Shown piece by piece: positions 25,401 through 61,145 of a DNA stretch of 64,000 bases. The translations under genes and the position numbers were made by a program. Position 1 is the stretch's first letter. Each line of letters opens with the position of its first letter. Origin of the DNA: Crossaster papposus. Taxonomy: Eukaryota > Echinodermata > Asteroidea > Velatida > Solasteridae. A model generated the notes under the pieces. That model was given only the letters and a program-made list of their open reading frames with translations, did no database searches and had not been told where the DNA came from. Location: assembly GCA_037893245.1 (NCBI GenBank), contig JBAIAA010000014.1:434001-498000 (forward strand), given 5' to 3'.

Positions 25401-28400
25401 GCAGCTTGCAATTGAAATCAATGGGGTGATTGGCTTCAACAGATTTACGATTTTCCTTAATAAAATAAATTGGGATTAAACTAAGATTTTGAAATCTCCA
25501 ATTTTCCACATCGCCATTTTCTACTACCTGCACAAATCCTCAGATTCAAAACGGATGACGCATAAACACGCCACGAGCAAGGCCGGAAATGCGTGGTTGT
25601 GCTTCCCGGTACCATCGGCCTAAACCCGCCTCGAATCGAGTTTTGTTAAAAATAATCCCGCGCGTCGGCTCGGTGATGTTAAAATAATCCCGGCGCAAAC
25701 TGGTTAATAACGAAGGCTTTTCTGCTGCAATAACCACAACTTTTCTGCTAACGGTAATAAGCAGAGCTATAAAATTGGGCCCAGTTGTGTCTCATTTTGC
25801 CAAGATGCCTTGCATTTTTTTTTAAAGAATGTTAGTACCAATCTGTATTCATGTACCCCCTCTGGGAGAGGTGGTCTCGGGACATTTAGCCAAATGACCT
25901 TGGGTGTATTAACTGTGCAAAGCATTTTGATTTTTATTAAAAAAAGTATTCTACTATGTTTTGCCCTATATCCCCAGATTGACCAAATCCGTCAGAAGTT
26001 TCGCTCCATGGAGGAACTGAAGAAGGATTTTGCCAAGATGAACGTGAAAGTGGAGACGGACGTGGAGATCATGACAAGGCTGGTGGAGAAGTTCCAGCGG
26101 GAAGGGGCCAGCTTGGAGGAGCAAGAGGCAGTGCTGTATGACCTGGAGTTCTATGCTCATCAGGTAAACGTGCAGTCGAACAAAACTGTATCGCGTCTAT
26201 GCCATCACAAATCCCCTTGCAAGCAAATCACCAAGTCAATCGAAATGGCAAGTTTGGTCATGAGTAAATCGGGACCCAACTTGCATAAATGGCGAGGGCT
26301 TGTCTAGGACTTGTATGGGACTTGTATGGGACTTGTATGGGACTTGTATGGGACTTGTATGGGACTTGTATGGGACTTGTATGGGACTTGTATGGGACTT
26401 GTATGGGACTTGTATGGGACTTGTATGGGACTTGTATGGGACTTGTATGGGACTTGTATGGGACTTGTATGGGACTTGTATGGGACTTGTATGGGACTTG
26501 TATGGGACTTGCGAGGACATGTATGGGACTGGCGAGGACATGTATGGGACTGGCGAGTACTTGTATGGGACTGGCGAGTACTTGTATGGGACTGGCTAGT
26601 ACTTGTATGGGACTGGCGAGTACTTGTATGGGACTGGCGAGTACTTGTATGGGACTTGCGGGGAATTGTATGCGACTTGCGAGAACTTTCCTAACGGACT
26701 TGTATTGGACTCGCGAGGACTTGTATTGGACTCGCGAGGACTTGTATTGGACTCGCGAGGACTTGTATTGGACTCGCGAGGACTTGTATTGGACTCGCGA
26801 GGACTTGTATTGGACTCGCGAGGACTTGTGTGGGACTTGCGAGGACTTGCCATGGGGGACTTGCCATGGGGGACTTGCCATGGGGGACTTGCCATGGGGG
26901 ACTTGTATTGGACTTGTAGTGGACTTGTAGTGGACTTGTAGTGGACTTGCGAAGACTTGTAGTGGACTTGCGAAGACTTGTAGTGGACTTGCGAAGACTT
27001 GTAGTGGACTTGCGAAGACTTGTAGTGGACTTGCGAGGACTTGTAGTGGACTTGCGAGGACTTGTAGTGGACTTGAAAGGACTTGTAGTGGACTTGCAAG
27101 GACTTGCGAAGACTTGTAGTGGACTTTTAAGGATTTGTATAGGTCATGTGAGGACTTTTAAGGATTTGTATAGGTCTTGTGAGGAATTGTATGGGTCTTG
27201 TGAAGACTTGTATGGGACTTGTGAGGACTAGTTGATGGGACTTGCAAGAACTTGTATTGGACTTGCAAGGACTTGTTTGGGACTTGCTAAAATAGACTTG
27301 CAAGGTCTTGTATGGGATTCGCCATGGAATACTTGCGAGGACTTGTATGGGACTTGCTATAGAGGACTTTCGAGGACTTGTATAGGATTTGCCATGGAGG
27401 ACTTGCCATGACTTGTATGGGACTTGCAATAGAGGACTTCATGACGTGTTGTTCAAAGTATCTACCACAGTGAAGTATAAAGTCGGAGATAATGAGTTGA
27501 ATGTTACAGCCGTAAAATTACACATTTTTGTATCTTTTATTTTGCTAATACAGATTGACAATGCGCAAGATCTGATCACCATCGGCGGTTTTGACTTGAT
27601 CATCAGAGCGCTCAACGATACAAGGGATGTTATCCGTAAACAGGCTGCGTTTGTCCTGGGCTCTGCAGTACAGAGGTGAGAACACTTCACCAAAGAAAAA
27701 AAATGAGATTTTTGTCCACCTGAAGTTTCTAATAAGGAGTTTCACTGCTGGAAAGTAAAAGAACAGCTGCTACCTTGAACAGGATTTTCAACAGTTTCTC
27801 TGCATCTGTTGGACATTGTGTGTATATATGTGACCTGTCACCACAATATGAGAGTAAATTCAGAAAAATTGAAAATTGAGATATTGGTTTTTTCAATTTC
27901 TTGAGAAAGAGAGCTTTCCAATGATACATAACACTTGGGGGTTTTGCGATAAATACTTTTTACAGCGCTCCAAAAAGCCACGGGTTTCACAAAACGTGTT
28001 TGTGAGAAAACTTACTTATAAACATCCTAAACAAAACACACAAACGATTGCCAAACAGGACAAGTAAGGTTCGGTTGAGCATAGCAACGGCTATGTTATA
28101 ATCATTATTTCTTCTTGAAACTTCCGACACTCACAAACTATTGTATAATCAACATAATATCAAAATTTTGAAAACGTGGGGCAGTTACGAAGACCTAATT
28201 TGCATATTTAATTACCGTGTTAATTAGACCACTGATGGACTTTAATCCAAACACTAACTACGCAAACACTACTCAAAATCATGTAATTTAAGAGGTTTTC
28301 GATCATCTGATTGCACCCCAAAAATGGGAATATGTAGAGGAGGACTTAGGCTTTCCAAATTACACAAAATCTCAAAATTGACCACCCCTTCATATTTTGA

Positions 28401-37917: not shown

Positions 37918-39758
37918 TAGTTAATTAAAATTAATTGATAAGGGTTTAGCCTTGCATTTGTATGCAAATTAGGTCAAAATATGTTAATTATGCAAAAATA
38001 AGATTTTTCAAAAAATGTCTGAAATGTCCCTAAAATTAATTGATAAGGGGTAAGCAAATTAGGTCAAAATATGTTAATAATGCAAAAATAAGATTTTTCA
38101 AAAAATGTCTGAAATGTCCCTAAAATTAATTGATAAGGGGTAAGCAAATTAGGTCAAAATATGATAATTATAGAAAAATGTCTTAAATGTCTCTTAAATG
38201 TATTGATGAGGGTTAGCCTGCAGTTGTATGCAAATTAGGTCGAAATAAGTTAATTATGCAAAAATGTCTCAAATGTCCCTAAAATTAATTAATAAGGGGT
38301 TACCTTGCATTTGTATGCAAATTAGGTCAAAATATGATAATTATGCAAACAATAAGATTAATCCCAAAACGTCTTAAATGTCCCTAAAATTAATTAATAA
38401 AGCGTTAGCCTTGCATTTGTATGCAAATTAGGTCAAAATATGTAAATTATGCAAAAGATGTCTCAATTGTCCCTAAAATTATTGATAAGGGTTTAGCCTT
38501 GCATTTGTATGCAAATTAGGTCAAAATATGTTAATTATCCAAATAATGTCTAAAATGTCCCTAAAATGTATTGATAAGAGGTTAGCCTTGCATTTGTATG
38601 CAAATTAGGTCAAAATATGGTAATTATGCAAAAATAAGATTTTTCAAAAAATGTCTGAAATGTCCCTAAAATTAATTGATAAGGGGTAAGCCTTGCATTT
38701 GTATGCAAATTAGGTCAAAATATGTTAATTATGCAAAAAAAGTCTCAAATGTCCCTAAAATGTATTGATAAGAAGTTAGCCTTGTATTTGTATGCAAATT
38801 AGGTCAAAATATGGTAATTATGCAAAAATCAGATTTTTCAAGAAATGTCTCTAAAATTAATTGATAAGGGGTAAGCCTTGCAATTGTATGCAAATTAGGT
38901 CAAATTATGTTAATTATGCAAAAAATGTCTCAAATGTCCCTAAAATTAAATGATAAGGGTTTAGCCTTGCATTTGTATGCAAATTAGGTCAAAATATGTT
39001 AATTATGCAAACAATGTCTCAAATGTCCCTAAAATTAATTAATAAGGGGTAAGCCTTGCAAATGTATGCAAATTAGGTCAAAATATGATAATTATAGAAA
39101 AATGTCTTAAATGTCTCTTAAATGTATTGATGAGGGTTAGCCTGCAATTGTATGCAAATTAGGTCGAAATAAGTTAATTATGCAAAAATGTCTCAAATGT
39201 CCCTAAAATTAAATGATAAGGGGTTAGCCTTGCATTTGTATGCAAATTAAGTCAAAATATGATAATTATGCAAACAATATCATTTTGTCAAAAATGTCTG
39301 AAATGTCCCTAAAATTAATTGATAAGAAGTTAGCCTTGTATTTGTATGCAAATTAGGTCAAAATATGGTAATTATGCAAAAATTAGATTTTTCAAAAAAT
39401 GTCTGAAATGTCTCTAAAATTAATTGATAAGGGGTAAGCCTTGCAATTGTATGCAAATTAGGTCAAATTATGTTCATTATGCAAAAAATGTCTCAAATGT
39501 CCCTAAAATTAAATGATAAGGGTTTAGCCTTGCATTTGTATGCAAATTAGGTCGAAATAAGTTAATTATGCAAAAATGTCTCAAATGTCCCTAAAATTAA
39601 TTAATAAGGGGTTACCTTGCATTTGTATGCAAATTAGGTCAAAAAATGTAATTATGCAAAAATAAGATTTGTAAAAAAATGTCTGAAATGTCCCTAAAAT
39701 TAATTGATAATGGTTTAGCCTTGCATTTGTATGCAAATTAGGTCATTATATGATAATT
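37918..39758 (+). repeat. Octamer satellite, left block (about 20 monomers)
   Basis: Tandem ~89-bp monomers (some ~102 bp, with an extra AAGATTTTTCAAAAAATGTC). Each carries AGCCTTGCATTTGTATGCAA, ATTAGGTCAAAATATG, TTAATTATGCAAA and ATGTCCCTAAAATTAATTG. TTGCAT-TTGT-ATGCAA is a dyad, and ATGCAAAT is the POU octamer. Monomers differ at scattered positions and by local duplication of multi-monomer segments. The count is estimated from length divided by period. Confidence 0.95.
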
Positions 39759-40243
39759 ACACATTTTACCACATAAAAGGTAAAATTTATTATACTCTAC
39801 GCAAAAACCCTACATGATTGCTAGTCGCGCAAGCATTAATGTTCTACCGGATTCAAGTACATGTACATGTATAAGTTGCATGTAAACTGGGATTCTGGTG
39901 CAGCCAATAAGAGCCAAGCATCATTTGCGTGCCGTGTGCAAACGGCCAACTCTAGCGGTCATTGCGGACGTGGCAGTACCACCCAACGCGCTGTGATCTG
40001 GCGACAGCCAATCAGCGTCCTGGGTTTTAGAAAGAGCGCGAAAGCTCCATGAGCCTATACAGAAATCCGCACTTTTAGTCACGGCTTCATTCAATACACA
40101 TCATCGTTCAATTAAAAAATGTTTAAAAAATGTTTTATGAATAAACATTTAGTGATTTTTAACTACTAATTGCTGGGTCAGCTGCATCGCTGTGGGACGA
40201 AAGCAGTCCTGCATCGGCAGGTCTGAGACATCCATTGATCGGG

Positions 40244-49854: not shown

Positions 49855-52800
49855 TAATGAAAAGATGTCTCAAATCTCCCTAAAATTAATTGATAAGGTG
49901 TATGCCTTGCATTTGTATGCAAATTAGTTCCTAATATGATAATTATGGAAAAATATCTCAAATGTCTCTAAAATGTATTGATAATAGGTTAGCCTTGCAT
50001 TTGTATGCAAATTAGGTTAAAAATATGTTAATTTATGCAATAAGATTTTGTCAAAAAATGTCTGAAATGTCCCTTAAATTAATTTATAAGGGGTATGCCT
50101 CGCATTTGTATGCAAATTAGGTCAAAATATGTTAATTATGCAAAAATAAGATTTTGTAAAAAAATGTCTGAAATGTTCCTAAAATTAATTGATAAGGGGT
50201 AAGCCTTGCATTTGTATGCAAATTAGGTCAAAATATGTTATTAATGCCAACAAATGTATGGAATGTCCCTTAAATTAATTGATAAGGGGTAAGCCTTGCA
50301 TTTGTATGCAAATTAGGTCAAAATATGTTAATTATGCAAAATATGTCTCAAATGTCCACAAAATCTATTGATAAATGTCACAAATGTCTCTAACATTAAT
50401 TGATAAGGGGTTAGCCCTGCATTTGCATGCAAACTAGGTCAAAATTGGTTAATTATGGAATAATACGATTTTGTCAAAAAATGTCTGAAATGTCCCAAAA
50501 ATAAGTTGATCAGTGGTAATCCTTGCATTTGTATGCAAATTAGGTCAAAATATGATAATTATGCAAACATAATGTCTAAAATGTCCCTAAAATGTATTGA
50601 TAAGAGGTTAGCCTTGCATTTGTATGCAAATTAGGTCAAAATATGTTAATTATGCAAACAATGTCTCAAATGTCTCTAACATTAATTGATAAGGGGTAAG
50701 CCTTGCATTTGTATGCAAATTAGGTCAAAATATGTTATTTATGCCAAAATATGTCTCAAATGTCCCTAAAATGAAATGATAACGGGTTAGCCTTGCATTT
50801 GTATGCAAATTAGGTCAAAATATGTTAATTATGCAATAATATGATTTTGTCAAAAAATGTCTGAAATGTCCCAAAAATTAGTTGATAAGGGGTAAGCCTT
50901 GCATTTGTATGCAAATTAGGTCAAAATATGTTATTAATGCCAACAAATGTATGGAATGTCTCTTAAATTTATTGATAAGGGGTAAGGCTTGCATTTGTAT
51001 TCAAATTAGGTCAAAATATGTTAATTATCAAAAATAATGTCTAAAATGTCCCTAAAATGTATTGATAATAGGTTAGCCTTGCATTTGTATGCAAATTAGG
51101 TCAAAATATGTTAATTATGCAAAATATGTCTCAAATGTCCACAAAATCTATTGATAAATGTCACAAATGTCTCTAACATTAATTGATAAGGGGTTAGCCC
51201 TTCATTTGCATGCAAACTAGGTCAAAATTGGTTAATTATGGAATAATACGATTTTGTCAAAAAATGTCTGAAATGTCCCAAAAATAAGTTGATCAGTGGT
51301 AATCCTTGCATTTGTATGCAAATTAGGTCAAAATATGATAATTATGCAAACATAATGTCTAAAATGTCCCTAAAATGTATTGATAAGAGGTTAGCCTTGC
51401 ATTTGTATGCAAATTAGGTCAAAATATGTTAATTATGCAGACAATGTCTCAAATGTCACTAAAATTTATTGATAAAGGGTTAGCCTTGCATTTGTATGCA
51501 AATTAGGTCAAAATATGTTATTTATGCAAACAATGTCTCAAATGTCACTAAAATTTATTGATAAAGGGTTAGCCTTGCATTTGTATGCAAATTAGGTCAA
51601 AATATGTTAATTATGCAAAAAATGTCACAAATGTCTGTAACATTAATTGATAAGAGGTTAGCCTTGCATTTGTATGCAAATTAAGTCAAAATATGTTAAT
51701 TATGCAAAAAATGTCACAAATGTCTGTAACATTAATTGATAAGAGGTTAGCCTTGCATTTGTATGCAAATTAGGTCAAAATATGATAATTATGCAAAAAT
51801 AAGATTTTTCAAAAAATGTCTCAAATGTCCCTAAAATTAAATGATAAGGGTTTAGCCTTGCATTTGTATGCAAATTAGGTCAAAATATGTTAATTATGCA
51901 AAATAATGTCTCAAATGTCCCTAAAATGTATTGATAAGGGGTTAGCCTTGCATTTGTATTCAAATTAGGTCAAAATATGTTAATTATGCAAAAATAAGAT
52001 TTGTCAAAAAAGTCTGAAATCTCCCTACAATTAATTGATAAGGGGTATGCAATGCATTTGATAAGGGGTTAGCCTTGCATTTGTATGCAAATTAGGTCAA
52101 AATATGTTAATTATGCAAAAATACGATTTTTCAAAAAATGTCTGAAATCTCCCAAAAATTAGTTGATAAGGGGTAAGCCTTGCATTTGTATGCAAATTAG
52201 GTCAAAATATGTTAATTATGCAAAAAATGTCTCAAAAGTCCCTAAAATTAATTGATTAGGGTTTAGCCTTGCATTTGTATGCAAATTAGGTCAAAATATG
52301 TTAATTATGCAAAAAATGTCTCAAATGTCCCTAAAATTAATTGATTAGGGTTTAGCCTTGCATTTGTATGCAAATTAGGTCAAAATATGTTAATTATGCA
52401 AAAAATGTATGGAATGTCCCTTAAATTAATTGATAAGGGGTAAGGCTTGCATTTGTATGCAAATTAGGTCAAAATATGTTAATTATCAAACATAATGTCT
52501 AAAATGTCCCTAAAATGTATTGATAATAGGTTAGCCTTGCATTTGTATGCAAATTAGGTCAAAATATGTTAATTATGCAAAATATGTCTCAAATGTCCAC
52601 AAAATCTATTGATAAATGTCACAAATGTCTCTAACATTAATTGATAAGGGGTTAGCCCTGCATTTGCATGCAAACTAGGTCAAAATGGGTTAATTATGCA
52701 ATAATACGATTTTGTCAAAAAATGTCTGAAATGTCCCAAAAATTAGTTGATAAGTGGTAATCCTTGCATTCGTATGCAAATTAGGTCAAAATATGTTTTT

Positions 52801-55800
52801 TATGCAAAAATAATGTCTAAAATGTCCCTAAAATGTATTGATAAGAGGTTAGCCTTGCATTTGTATGCAAATTAGGTCAAAATATGTTAATTATGCAAAA
52901 TATGTCTCAAATGTCCATAAAATGTATTGATAAGGGGTTTGCAATTGTATGCAAATTAAGTCAAAATAAGTTAATTATGCAAAAAGGAGATTTTGTCAAA
53001 AAATGTCTGAAATGTCGTTAAAATTCATTGATAAGGAATTAGCCTTGCATTTGTATGCAAATTAGGTCAAAATATGTTATTTATGCAAAAAATGTCACGA
53101 ATGTCACTAACATTTATTGATAAAGGGTTAGCCTTGCATTTGTATGCAAATTAGGTTAAAAATATTTTAATTATGCAATAATAAGATTTTTTTTTTAAAT
53201 GTCTGAAATGTCCCTTAAATTAATGGATAAGGGGTAAGCCTTGCATTTGTATGCAAATTAGGTCAAAATATGTTAATTATCAAAAACAATGTCTAAAATG
53301 TCCATAAAATGTATTGATAAGAGGTTAGCCTTGCATTTGTATGCAAATTAGGTCAAAATATGTTAATTATGCAAAAATAAGATTTTGAAAAAAAATGTCT
53401 GAAATGTTTCTAAAATTAATTGATAAGGGGTAAGCCTTGCATTTGTATGCAAATTAGGTCAAAATATGTTAATTATGCAAAAAATGTCTGAAATGTTCCT
53501 AAAATTAATTGATAAGGGGTAAGCCTTGCATTTGTATGCAAATTAGGTCAAAATATGTTAATTATGCAAAAAACTGTAACAAATGTCTCTAACATTAATT
53601 GATACGGGGTTAGCCCTGCATTTGCATGCAAAGTAGGTCAAAATTTGTTAATTATGCAATAATATGATTTTGTCAAAAGATGTCTGAAATGTCCCAACAA
53701 TTAATTAATAAGGGGTAAGCCTTGCATTTGTATGCAAATTAGGTCAAAATATGTTAATTATGCAAAAATAAGATTTGTCAAAAAAGTCTGAAATCTCCCT
53801 AAAATTAATTGATAAGGGGTATGCAATGCATTTGATAAGGGGTTAGCCTTGCATTTGTATGCAAATTAGGTCAAAATATGTTAATTATGCAAAAATAAGA
53901 TTTTGTCAAAAAATGTCTGAAATGTTCCTAAAATTAATTGATAAGGGGTAAGCCTTGCATTTGTATGCAAATTAGGTCAAAATATGTTAATTATGAAAAA
54001 ATGTCTCAAATGTCCCTAAAATTAATTAATAAGGGGTAAGCCTTGCATTTGTATGCAAATTAGGTCAAAATATGTTAATTATGCAAAAAATGTCTCAAAT
54101 GTCCCTAAAATTAATTGATTAGGGTTTAGCCTTGCATTTGTATGCAAATTAGGTCAAAATATGTTAATTATGCAAAAAATGTCTCAAATGTCCCTAAAAT
54201 TAATTGATTAGGGTTTAGCCTTGCATTTGTATGCAAATTAGGTCAAAATATGTTAATTATGCAAAAAATGTATGGAATGTCCCTTAAATTAATTGATAAG
54301 GGGTAAGGCTTGCATTTGTATGCAAATTAGGTCAAAATATGTTAATTATCAAAAATAATGTATAAAATGTCCCTAAAATGTATTGATAATAGGTTAGCCT
54401 TGCATTTGTATGCAAATTAGGTCAAAATATGTTAATTATGCAAAATATGTCTCAAATGTCCACAAAATCTATTGATAAATGTCACAAATGTCTCTAACAT
54501 TAATTGATAAGGGGTTAGCCCTGCATTTGCATGCAAACTAGGTCAAAATTGGTTAATTATGCAATAATACGATTTTGTCAAAAAATATCTGAAATGTCCG
54601 AAAAATTTGTTGATAAGTGGTAATCCTTGCATTTGTATGCAAATTAGGTCAAAATATGTTAATTATGCAAAAATAATGTCTAAAATGTCCCTAAAATGTA
54701 TTGATAAGAGGTTAGCCTTGCATTTGTATGCAAATTAGGTCAAAATATGTTAATTATGCAAAATATGTCTCAAATGTCCATAAAATGTATTGATAAGGGG
54801 TTTGCAATTGTATGCAAATTAAGTCAAAATAAGTTAATTATGCAAAAAGGAGATTTTGTCAAAAAATTTCTGAAATGTCGCTAAAATTCATTGATAAGGA
54901 ATTAGCCTTGCATTTGTATGCAAATTAGGTCAAAATATGTTATTTATGCAAAAAATGTCACGAATGTCACTAAAATTTATTGATAAAGGGTTAGCCTTGC
55001 ATTTGTATGCAAATTAGGTTACAAATATTTTAATTATGCTATAATAATATTTTTTTTTTTAAATGTCTGAAATGTCCCTTAAATTAATTGATAAGGGGTA
55101 AGCCTTGCATTTGTATGCAAATTAGGTCAAAATATGTTAATTATCAAAAACAATGTCTAAAATGTCCCTAAAATGTATTGATAAGAGGTTAGCCTTGCAT
55201 TTGTATGCAAATTAGGTCAAAATATGTTAATTATGCAAAAATAAGATTTTGAAAAAAAATGTCTGAAATGTTTCTAAAATTAATTGATAAGGGGTAAGCC
55301 TTGCATTTGTATGCAAATTAGGTGAAAATATGTTAATTATGCAAAAAATGTCTGAAATGTTCCTAAAATTAATTGATAAGGGGTAAGCCTTGCATTTGTA
55401 TGCAAATTAGGTCAAAATATGTTAATTATGCAAAAAATGTAACAAATGTCTCTAACATTAATTGATACGGGGTTAGCCCTGCATTTGCATGCAAACTAGG
55501 TCAAAATTTGTTAATTATGCAATAATATGATTTTGTCAAAAGATGTCTGAAATGTCCCAAAAATTAATTGATAAGCGGTAAGCCTTTCATTTGTATGCAA
55601 ATTAGGTCAAAATATGTTAATTATGCAAAATAATGTCTCAAATGTACCTAAAATGTATTGATAAGGGGTTAGCCTTGCATTTGTATGCAATTTAGGTCAA
55701 AATATGATAATTATGCAAAAATGAGATTTTGTCAAAAAATGTCTGAAATGTCCCTAAAATTCATTGATAAGGGATTAGCCTTGCATTTGTATGCAAATTA

Positions 55801-55965
55801 GGTCAAAATATGTTAATTATGCAAAAATAAGATTGTAAAAATATCTGAAATTTTCCTTAAATTGATCGGTAAGGGGGTTTGTCTTGCATATGTATGCAAA
55901 TTAGGACAAAATCTGATAATTTTGCAAACAATAACATTTAAAAAAAAAATGTGTCACACGAACAG
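49855..55965 (+). repeat. Octamer satellite, right block (about 65 monomers) with higher-order structure
   Basis: Same monomer and orientation as the left block. A marker segment (ATGTCCACAAAATCTATTGA, then a CTGCATTTGCATGCAAACTA variant) recurs at about 50341, 51123, 52582 and 54444. The last two fall in a ~1.86-kb repeat (compare the poly-T monomer at ~53167 and ~55028). The 3' edge decays after 55850. The monomer count is estimated from length. Confidence 0.95.
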
Positions 55966-56089: not shown

Positions 56090-56372
56090 CGCTTCCTATA
56101 CCAATGGATGGAGAATCTTTCTAGAAGAAAAATAATACCAAGATATCTTGATTGGGGCGAGTAGTTTTAGCTCCAGACTCTATTTTGTGAAGCAAAGTCA
56201 GGGGTCTTTTAACACCTGGCACGGTTTAGTTATTTCTCGATGTTAAAGAACCACAGACTTCACTTCACAAAATAGGGTCTGGAGCTAAAGCTACTAGCCC
56301 AAATCGAGATATCTTGGTATTATTTTTGTTCTAGAAAGATTCCCCATCCATTGGTATAGGTAGTTAGGCCTC
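56090..56372. mobile_element. Foldback MITE (283 bp)
   Basis: CCTATACCAATGGATGG and ATACCAAGATATC at the left return inverted at the right (GATATCTTGGTAT, CCATCCATTGGTATAGG). The arms also share CTCCAGACTCTATTTTGTGAAG. Adjacent to the satellite end. Confidence 0.85.
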
Positions 56373-56559
56373 TGGGTAGAGAAAGTAAGCTTGTCAGTTA
56401 AGATATGCTTGTCTAGATTTTATTTGTTGGGGTCACATTTATATTCATACTCAGTTTAAAACTCAGTAAAACAATTTAAATGGACAATTATTAGACACGA
56501 AAAAACGACAGCAAAGCATACAAGAAACCTCTTTTAACATACATCGATACATAGAAACT

Positions 56560-57335
56560 GTTTGAGCTGATGCTCATTATAATGTCAAGTTCTAGCAGGA
56601 ACTGCTTTAGTTCTCGTGAGCTTGTTTCAGTTCCAGGGTGAGCTGTTCGAGCTGATGCTCATTACAATGTCAAGTTCTAGCAGAAAATGCTTTAGTTTTT
56701 AGTTCTTGAAGGCTTGTACCTGGTATTCACAAAAAAGGCAACCACTCCCTGGCACTGCGGTTACCTCAGAACCTTTAGTGTTTATAATTCAGTACCCGCA
56801 GAGGCTGTTTAAGTTCTCAGTTATTAGCATCTAGAAGCTGATACCCAGCATTTTAGTTAAAAACAGAACTTTTTTGTAACAAGTACATGTACTTTAGTTC
56901 AACAAGAATGGCAAAAATGTGATTTCGCAGAACCACGCCCCGTCTGTGCAGTTTCCTCAGAACAACCAGTATAGAATCCGGTTCTTGGCGGAACTGTTGT
57001 ATGTTCTAGGTTTCTGGTAGCTAAAACCAATCTATAGACAGAATTTCAGTTTAGCAATGACTGCTCTTGGTAACTTTGCAGTGTAACAACCCCTCCTCGA
57101 CTCTGCAGTTGCCTAAAGAACCTCAAGTATCTATCGGTTCCTACTGTAACTGACGTATAGTTCTCAGTTCTTGGCATTTTAGTTTGGAAGGGACTGCACT
57201 GTGTGTCTGTGCAATGGCACAACCAGACCCTGTCGGTGTGAGCTCCTTCAGAATCTCAAGTAAAGCGACCAGTTCTTGCCGGAACTGTTGCAGTTCTTGG
57301 TTCTTTGGAACTATAACATGCTTCTACCCATCATT
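56560..57335 (-). repeat. Series of decayed tandem copies of the CEP162-like last exon
   Basis: Units of ~130-180 bp, each aligning with the plus-strand view of the last exon (57336-57480). They share CAGTTTAGCAGGGACTG-like starts, ACCTCAAGTAT-like middles and CCGGAACTGTTG / AGTTCTTGGTTCTT-like ends. Copies start near 57177, 57046, 56880 and 56690, with a more diffuse one near 56570. By eye the nearest copy is the most similar and the copies decay with distance. None keeps an open frame. Confidence 0.75.
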
Positions 57336-57570
57336 TCAGTTTAGCAGGGACTGAACGGTGTGACTGCGCAAAGGCAACAGCACACCCTGTCGCTGCAGCT
57401 CCCGCAGAACCTCAAGTATGGCGTCCAGTTCCTGCCGGAACTGTTGTAGTTCTCGGTTCTTGGCGGCAAGAGCCTGCTGGCACCCAGCTATTTCTTGATC
57501 CTTTTTGTAGGAACCTGAACATCGGGCCCTCTCCACCAGCTGCTGAAGCTCTTGGTATCTCTGCGCATGC
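57336..57570 (-). CDS. CEP162: CEP162-like last exon
   Basis: Open over 77 codons to TGA. Reads HAQRYQELQQLVERAR, then KNRELQQFRQELD, and ends SHTVQSLLN. The stop lies at the border of the tandem copies described at 56560-57335. Confidence 0.75.
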
Positions 57571-57829: not shown

Positions 57830-57882
57830 CTTGCGTCCATGGTTGCAATCTTGGCTTGCAGGGCTTAAAAATGTCGCATCTC
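57830..57882 (-). CDS. CEP162: CEP162-like exon n-1, contains TAA
   Basis: 53 bases; reads EMRHF, then TAA, then ALQAKIATMDA. Phase-compatible with both neighbours, which is the main argument that it is a real exon. Confidence 0.55.
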
Positions 57883-58185: not shown

Positions 58186-58335
58186 TGGAGTATGGGACTT
58201 CTTGGCTTCTCGAAGATCTTCGTTGAGCTGATCCACCTGCGTCTTGAAGAGTTGCTCCTGGACGCGGGCTGCCGACAGGGAATCCGTGTCGACTCTGGCT
58301 TCTAGCAACTACTCCTGAAGATGCTTGATCATCAC
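58186..58335 (-). CDS. CEP162: CEP162-like exon n-2, contains TAG
   Basis: 50 codons between CGACATCCAG and GTGAGT. The ninth codon is TAG, in the context HLQE-stop-LLEAR. Use of that TAG itself as the AG acceptor would skip the stop and keep phase 0, but the tract before it is weak. Confidence 0.6.
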
Positions 58336-58484
58336 CTGGATGTCGATAAACAACAAATGGCAATGTGGGAGACGTTTCTAGAGTCTAGTTTGCATAGTCC
58401 CTAGTGCCGTGGCCTTGTGTTCTGGAGAATTGAATTGGTGGTCAGCGGGTAATTCTGCAGGTAGTGGGTTCGAGTCCAGCTCAC

Positions 58485-59044: not shown

Positions 59045-61145
59045 CTAGCATGCTGAGCTGGGTTGTGCTTCCAAGTGAAAAAAAGCTCTTCTATCACCTT
59101 GACCCTGAAATCCAAAGTGCTGATTTGTAGCGATGCTGTTGTATACAATGGTAGCATTCACCAAACAGATGTCAAGAATGGCCACGAAAACTCTTTTCCA
59201 CCATTTCATCGATTTGTGAGGGTGCGAGTAGTACTGACACATTTGTGTTGGGAGATCACTTCCTCCCAAGTATTTATTATAATCATTAACGACAGAAGGT
59301 TTTTTGATCGTACGAACTCCACTCAAACGGTTTACTCCAAATGTCTTTCGTGTCGATTTGGCAGTTTCCAACATTTGTGAGAAGAGTTGCATGCTTAACA
59401 TCCTGCCAAACGACGCAAAGTTGGCCGGCTTTGGTGTAAAACTGGGGATCAGCACCTCTTATCATGTGTAACTTTTTTGGGTTTGCACAATGTGGAATCC
59501 CCGGTGTGGTGTAGCGTGCAGTTCCACAAGCTCCAAACTTTAACTGTGACAACTTGCAGATGAGAGCTGGGCTGGTATACCAATTGTCCATGAAAATGAA
59601 ATGTCCCTTATGTTTGAGTCATGTAATTAGGTCGAGGACTACATGCCCAGCAGATGTAATATTAGGTGGGTGGTGTGTTAAAGCATAACCAACGGAGGGT
59701 CGACTAGATTCCTTTGGTGTGGGCTGAGAGCCGGTGAACACCTTCCAAGCACATGTATAACTGGTTTCTGACTCGTTCAATGAAAAACATTTCAATCCCC
59801 ATTTGACGGACTTTCGTGGTAGGTACTGTTTGAAACCAAGTCGGGCTTTGAACTTTATCATTGTCTCATCTGGTGAGAGGTTTCGGCCTGGCTTGTAAAT
59901 GCGAGGCAAGGATGGCAGTACAATGTCGAGCAGCGGGCGGACCTTGGAGAGTTTGTCAGGGGGAGCATCACCTGGTTGAGCTCTGTTGTTGGCAAGGTGG
60001 AAGGATTGAAGGATCGCAGTGAATCGATTGCGAGACATGGTCGCCGAATACAGGGGACTTCGCAGAACTTCGGAACTGGACCTGTGCATACTGTAGCGAG
60101 GCCTTTTGTTGATACCCATGCACAAAAGCAAGGCCCCGAATGCCATAATTTCAGGAACAGTAGTTGGATTCCAGGCAGGCTGACGATTGGCCACATCTGC
60201 AGACATTATCTGGTCAGCATAGCGATTGGTCTCATCCACCATCAACTCCCACACTGCTTGGCAGAAGAAGAGCTGAAAGATTTGCATGGGCGACAGGTGA
60301 CTGAAATCTCCCGTACAGCCAGTCTCTTCACTGAATTTCATCAGTGGGCTCTTGCTATACGAGGTGCTTGCTTTATTCCATCCACACCTGAAATAGGAAC
60401 ATTCAGAAAGGTTAATGGGACACTATTCATTTAACGGCACATTTTCTTTTCTTGTTTTGTTGTTGTTGTTTTGGGTTTATTTTTTTTGGGGGGGGGGGGT
60501 TGTCGCAAATGTTGTATTACCTTTAATGACAAACTGTCCTTACAATGCTGTTTGTGGATGCTCGTATCTAGTGTTCCCACTGAAATAAGTCTCCTTTTTT
60601 AATGAAATAAAATATCATGAAATAAAATCTCTTTTTTTAAAGATTCATATATAAAAATAGATAAACATTTACAATCAATAGAAAGTTAAGAATATCTAAA
60701 CAAAAAAACATGTTCAAAAAACAAATTCTTTACTTTTTTCAAATCAATAAAAAATCAATAAATCACTAACAAATCACTAACAAATCAATATTTTCATCAA
60801 TTTCTAATTGGATTTCATCGGATTATGCATTGCAAAGTGAAACGTTCAGTGCTTTTGATGATTTTACCTGCAAAAGGTCATCAAAAAGCAAAGGTTACAT
60901 TACAGTAGCCTATGAATGTCGGATGCGAAACATTTCGAGAATAGCCAAGTTAAACGGTGTGTTTTTAGTAAAATAGTAACCTCCCGACCATACCTGTAAT
61001 TTGGCTTTTCAGACAAAGTTGATGAGGCTTGTCTTGCCTCTTCATCACTTTCGTCAGATGTTGCAACAGAAGATTCATCATCGGACATATCTAAACCGCT
61101 CTCTGCGAAGATTTCCTCCAAAATCTTGGAAGCGTTTTCGGCCAT
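59045..61145 (-). pseudogene. piggyBac transposase, two exons, inactivated
   Basis: PGBD/piggyBac-type DDD transposase. Exon 1 (61145-60994) encodes an acidic N-terminus (MAENASKILEEIFAESGLDM) and ends AG before GTATGG; exon 2 starts at 60387 after CTATTTCAG in matching phase. The three catalytic Asp are visible: SPDETMIKF (near 59870), FMDNWYTS (near 59590) and YLGGSDLPTQM (near 59260). An in-frame TGA at 59621-59619 and a frameshift between about 59320 and 59286 break the frame. The C-terminus ends at 59045; I did not recognise a clear Cys-rich zinc-binding domain. The TIRs were not located. Confidence 0.88.

Follow-up and report, generated by a model that had tools for sequence, protein, structure and literature searches.

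The closest known kinds of change are the minisatellite, or local tandem repeat of unique-sequence origin, the duplicated (unprocessed) pseudogene, and template switching of the MMBIR/FoSTeS type. A further kind, tandem exon duplication, is the theme of PMC9013439. Among the titles and abstract openings listed by a literature search with narrow terms, none describes an array like the one reported below; absence from print is not claimed.

The locus compared here lies on the minus strand of the window, i.e. the whole 64,000-nucleotide stretch of Crossaster papposus DNA that was analysed. It consists of the end of a gene copy, which we tentatively call CEP162-like from coiled-coil motifs and from the naming in the original prediction, followed by a row of copies of the end of its last coding exon. 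Searches of Pfam and PDB with the coiled-coil exons gave no match reaching the Pfam cut-off and no meaningful PDB match. The row of exon-end copies is real and local, and has the following layout.

57336..57570, minus strand: exon D, the last coding exon of the CEP162-like gene copy (open counterpart at C906:40115-40349)
57336-57338, minus strand: TGA, the stop codon of exon D
57486-57336, minus strand: u0, the final ~150 bp of exon D
57175..57330, minus strand: unit u1, a tandem copy of the exon end, with a period of 156-157 bp (~52 codons) and an internal 1-bp indel
57042..57174, minus strand: unit u2, 133 bp, without the first ~23 bp of the unit
56885..57041, minus strand: unit u3, of which the parent locus on contig C906 keeps only the start
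56693..56884, minus strand: unit u4, the most diverged, absent on C906, with approximate borders

Units u1-u4 stand in gene order, with approximate borders, followed by two shorter units that reach 56558; by eye, the start of u4 holds a fragment of one further unit end, and its end overlaps the shorter composite units. Tandem Repeats Finder assigns 57174-57494 a period of 156 bp, and direct-orientation copies found by the repeat finder continue down to 56558. The four blocks downstream of the stop span 57330-56693, all in the orientation of the exon. That these blocks align with the exon itself was borne out by the proposed pairwise alignments, in which the exon end (57336-57480) was identical to 57170-57320 at 102/124 positions (z ~51), to 57040-57175 at 94/125 (z ~20), to 56880-57030 at 75/94 (z ~23) and to 56690-56840 at 67/93 (z ~12). 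In every one of these alignments the real score lay above those of all 1000 dinucleotide-preserving shuffles, which rules out chance similarity. Four control stretches (the 5' part of exon D, an intron, the downstream flank and an upstream exon) all fell within their own shuffles, with 184 to 704 of 1000 equal or higher. An additional 33-bp match to the exon end lies at 56584-56616 (27/33 identical, 0/1000 shuffles as high). The stop codon also sits at a unit border, as had been noted: the TGA ends 5 bp ahead of the 57330/57331 junction.

The genome was searched at the DNA level over 1,023,315,904 bases, using the exon end, the distal units and the remaining tail as queries; all counts from these searches are lower bounds. 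The matches listed fall on the window's own contig (C14), on C906, and at two mirror-image places on C456, that is, at least four places on three contigs, and none of them is an array apart from this exon. A genome-wide repeat as the source of the units was set aside on this distribution, and the earlier view that no dispersed repeat stands behind them agrees with searches that list only this locus and its copies (again as lower bounds).

Other repeats occur in the surrounding DNA. An AT-rich ~89-bp satellite with higher-order periods occupies 49949-55927 and 37960-39759 of the window; it starts 0.6 kb downstream of the array, adjoins all three copies of the locus, and fills a large part of the first 39 kb of C906, with no match shown at ~21.7-27.2 kb. 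A genome search for this satellite gave at least 314 matches on at least 11 contigs among the matches listed (40/1809 candidates scored). It was set aside as a relative of the units, since it lies on many contigs, unlike them, a judgement made on distribution rather than direct alignment. A ~300-bp stretch between satellite and array (56092-56394) matches C456 in both orientations and is thus partly self-complementary; it is possibly a MITE. At 26299-27439, the window contains a complex GGACTTG-type tandem array with nested periods of 11, 14, 21, 35 and more.

On its sequence, the window's gene copy is a truncated pseudogene, and an apparently intact parent with a shorter array lies on C906. 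The original prediction had treated the CEP162-like copy in the window as a gene. This view had to be abandoned: a live gene is ruled out by nonsense codons in exons B and C and by the failure to find exon A and the tested upstream exons there. The window thus contains no functional gene to which the array could supply a 3' end.

57830..57882, minus strand: exon C of the pseudogene, with a GAA to TAA nonsense change at codon 57865-57867 that is common to both C456 copies
58186..58335, minus strand: exon B of the pseudogene, with a CAG to TAG nonsense change at 58309-58311
58481..58482, no strand: end of homology to the parent gene

Exons A-D, as a set, are open only on C906, and the window copy is disabled, by TAG in exon B and by TAA in exon C, at points where the parental frames are open. 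When upstream exons of C906 were joined into one query, five matches resulted, each of them on C906, with none on C14 or C456; in two matches, stops were flagged where the query runs over exon ends that had been joined by guess. Neither exon A nor the tested upstream exons were found on C14, where homology to C906 stops before exon A. Introns B-C and C-D align between the loci and are therefore retained in the window copy. The two copies on C456 have the TAA in common with C14. In addition, their exon D contains a TGA, 5 bp are inserted in their exon C, and within exon A the match is interrupted by a gap of ~480 bp, which we interpret as an insertion. Most simply, the C14 and C456 copies would descend from one dead copy.

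Several features lie close to these copies. A tRNA-like stretch at 58382-58481 of the window, found at the same place in all three loci and directly at the window's homology end, is by eye presumably the end of a SINE, judging from its motif. Behind the pseudogene break, a 267-aa frame (59619-60422, minus strand) matches DDE_Tnp_1_7 (PF13843, E 1e-43), and we take it to be a piggyBac-type transposase fragment. On C456, the two pseudogene copies lie at the inner ends of an inverted repeat (1741549-1760801 and 1763136-1782437) whose 19.3-kb arms are 99.3% identical and enclose a ~2.3-kb spacer with satellite. The inverted repeat may be a real palindrome or an assembly join.

The far end of the array has a different makeup, and here the reading of the distal blocks as plain last-exon copies was corrected: the most distal units are composites of two exons.

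56558..56720, minus strand: distal composite units of ~85-92 bp, ~2 copies in the window
56623..56661, minus strand: a 39-bp piece matching the start of parent exon A plus 10 nt of the preceding intron, 35/39 identical (counterpart at C906:41865-41903)
56558..56576, minus strand: a second exon-A piece, truncated, 17/19 identical (E 0.54 alone)

The second piece is read as belonging to a repeat unit, given that the sequence around it repeats 56643-56697 at 93%. Each ~92-bp unit comprises ~40 bp of last-exon sequence (31/40 identical) and ~40 bp of the exon A start with 10 nt of intron, exon A being three exons upstream of the last exon. In the C456 unit, the corresponding piece is identical to exon A at 36/39 positions. 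For the window piece, the alignment score is 58 with exon A and 17 with exon D, which excludes mere last-exon sequence as its identity, and the maximum over 200 composition shuffles, run against a 58-kb stretch of C906, was 32. As the chimera includes intron bases, its source was probably genomic DNA rather than spliced RNA, and as the window copy is without exon A, the chimera was made before truncation. The ~92-bp unit occurs in ~2 copies in the window and likewise ~2 on C906, compared with 4.7 copies in one C456 arm and 3.7 in the other; among all units, only these distal ones look freshly amplified, in C456. This two-exon chimeric repeat is one neat extra in mostly ordinary genome evolution.

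Comparison of the loci gives an indication of how the array has changed. Between C906 and the window copy, K is 0.144 for u1, 0.080 for u2 and 0.072 for the distal units, with 0.060-0.130 for three intron stretches and 0.034 for the exon end, all figures including time after the death of the pseudogene. The exon end differs at 5/151 positions versus 21/161 for u1 (Fisher p 0.0019), and differences in the exon end versus the introns give a Fisher p of 0.026. The 5' part of exon D differs at 8/89 (K 0.096), no lower than intron. With the same inclusion of time after death, dN and dS are 0.031 and 0.144 for exon D of the parent versus the window copy, 0.020 and 0.129 for exon D of the parent versus C456, and 0.026 and 0.060 for exon B. 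The tail drifts about like intron, and the exon end was constrained.

In a tree of 13 units, u1 unites all three loci (support 86), as does u2 (100); the copies of u3 from the two loci possessing it group together (100), and so do those of u4 (100). Since the units group by position and not by locus, the array is older than the locus copies, and u1 and u2 in particular predate the split of the loci. For u4, which is absent on C906, a long branch (0.44) suggests an origin before the locus copies. The pattern of a homogenised satellite was not found for u1-u4: units within a locus are no more alike than units between loci. C906 keeps just the start of u3 and then runs into the distal units. Because the divergence of u3 and u4 far exceeds that of the loci, this is best read, though not proved, as deletion of most of u3 and all of u4 on C906.

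We consider it likely that the tail is a neutral ladder, built as a stop-spanning segment of ~156 bp was duplicated locally again and again, extended at its distal end by a two-exon chimera, and later copied together with the gene's 3' end and left to die. Under this explanation, this segment, which starts within the last coding exon and extends a few bases beyond the stop, would have been duplicated in tandem. Because the upstream copy retains the stop, the new copy would fall behind the coding region and the protein would stay unchanged. Duplication would then have recurred, most likely beside the exon, so that outer copies are older and have decayed for longer. At the far end, a template switch would have fused the start of exon A with last-exon sequence, giving the ~92-bp chimeric unit, which could then amplify itself. 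The 3' end of the gene, array included, would later have been copied elsewhere and died there, with the window holding one such dead copy. We infer slippage or template switching as the mechanism, and likewise the order of births and the status of the array as transcribed 3' UTR in the parent.

The order of births can be approached through identity to the parent exon end, measured over all aligned columns at the two loci tested, the window and C456. For u1-u4, identity is 79.4, 70.8, 63.6 and 61.1% in the window and 79.4, 68.5, 62.3 and 59.5% on C456. In 2000 bootstraps each (window/C456), u1 exceeded u2 in 0.96/0.98, u2 exceeded u3 in 0.92/0.89, u3 exceeded u4 in 0.67/0.70, u1 exceeded u3 in 0.9995/1.0, and u2 exceeded u4 in 0.97/0.96. 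The fall of similarity with distance, first judged by eye, thus stands over all aligned columns; in local alignments it is not monotone, with u3 (75/94) closer to the exon than u2 (94/125). Within the window copy, the non-coding units also become more distant from one another towards the outside, with identities of 67.7% for u1-u2, 64.0/62.7% for u3 with u1/u2, and 56.3/58.4/52.8% for u4 with u1/u2/u3.

A single burst, in which the units were born together and the gradient arose through unequal decay or through conversion of the nearest unit by the exon, is rather unlikely given this outward fall at both loci and the matching distances among non-coding units. What speaks for a burst is the unit tree. 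An AU test of the five unit positions rejected none of 15 topologies, nor the star (p 0.081 to 0.56), leaving 16/16 with p-AU above 0.05; the strictly serial topology lies below the best by a delta logL of 0.067. The branch setting u0+u1 apart from u2-u4 has a support of 29, and supports inside the array are 26 and 29. The term 'serial' in the original prediction is plausible and fits the gradient, but the unit tree singles out no one order. Serial birth beside the exon, with the oldest unit outermost, is favoured from the gradient as likely but not proved.

The stop codon raises a related question, as the expansion may itself have made the present C-terminus. In this alternative, the first junction, joining CTAAACT to GAAAT...TGGGT, would have created the TGA and cut off an older, longer C-terminus. 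Such an event would be compatible with either the preferred explanation or a burst, and we regard it as unlikely. The TGA does sit at the junction, and could have been made there and later copied into several units; moreover, the bases after the stop (GAAATGATGGGT, with the GAAAT..TGGGT pattern) resemble GAAATAGCTGGGT at the unit start inside the exon. Microhomology at GAAAT would, however, give the same pattern with an older stop. TGAAAT closes u0 and u2 at their 3' ends, with TAAAATG, TTCAAATG and TAAAGT at the matching place in others. Such words, mutated in u1 and u3, persist even where the next unit is without the usual start (u1 before u2, u2 before u3), which argues that the word is part of the unit end. 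A TGA shared by several unit ends is as expected if the stop is older than the array. We therefore prefer a stop that would predate the array, with microhomology between the old stop region and the exon leading to the first duplication.

A bolder reading would make the gene's 3' end a long-lived self-copying site, where the exon end was repeatedly copied outward over a time several-fold the age of the dead duplicates, once fusing with another exon, and where the first event may have written the stop. This we hold to be quite doubtful.

The reverse direction, in which the repeat came first, as a minisatellite, and was exonised to form the gene's end, is very unlikely. It would account for a repeat row that directly abuts the coding end, but the array contains part of a second exon of this gene together with intron bases, and the exon end is the most conserved stretch, in an open frame of an apparently intact gene. 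The genome matches listed also include no such repeat away from this exon.

Functional units, acting as alternative terminal coding segments or as conserved 3' UTR elements, are highly improbable. The ~156-bp period is divisible by three, and a 60-codon open frame runs through u1 (57141-57323) in the frame of the exon. Against this, the units contain stops and indels and change at intron-like rates, with no sign of function found in their sequence, and the apparently functional locus on C906 lacks most of u3-u4. A candidate poly(A) signal lies beyond the units.

56419..56424, minus strand: AATAAA, a candidate poly(A) signal, 912 bp after the stop

In the copy labelled C456R, an AATAAA lies 1125 bp behind the stop, and the matching place on C906 reads AATACA, with TATAAA nearby. 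An assembly artefact, to which the large inverted repeat at C456:1741549-1782437 might point, is practically negligible as an explanation of units that carry their own substitutions on three contigs.

In summary, the array is mostly ordinary genome evolution, a local and old row of duplications that by itself shows no new process. Its value is that local duplications which began from a coding exon can be read here as a fossil series, for which the three copies of the locus serve as replicates. It illustrates that stop-spanning duplications can accumulate behind a gene without showing in the protein, and may offer a modest test case for the growth of 3' flanks and for the way in which parts of exons turn into tandem repeats.

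Each of the known kinds resembles part of this locus. Like a duplicated (unprocessed) pseudogene, the window copy keeps its introns, has nonsense codons and is truncated; unlike one, it carries the parental tail array along. The ~92-bp chimera recalls microhomology-mediated template switching in joining, at words that by eye are short and similar, two sequences separated by ~1.7 kb in the parent, although here the event is read from an old, mutated junction. As in tandem (partial) exon duplication, exon sequence was duplicated locally at the DNA level, but the segment spans the stop and comes without a splice acceptor, so the copies lie behind the coding region and are unable to act as ordinary alternative exons. 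The array also resembles a minisatellite or local tandem repeat of unique-sequence origin in its head-to-tail units of 133-190 bp, its restriction to this locus and its copies among the matches listed, and a copy number that varies between loci. It differs from one in that its units are few, strongly diverged and non-homogenised, and in that its seed is the end of a coding exon.
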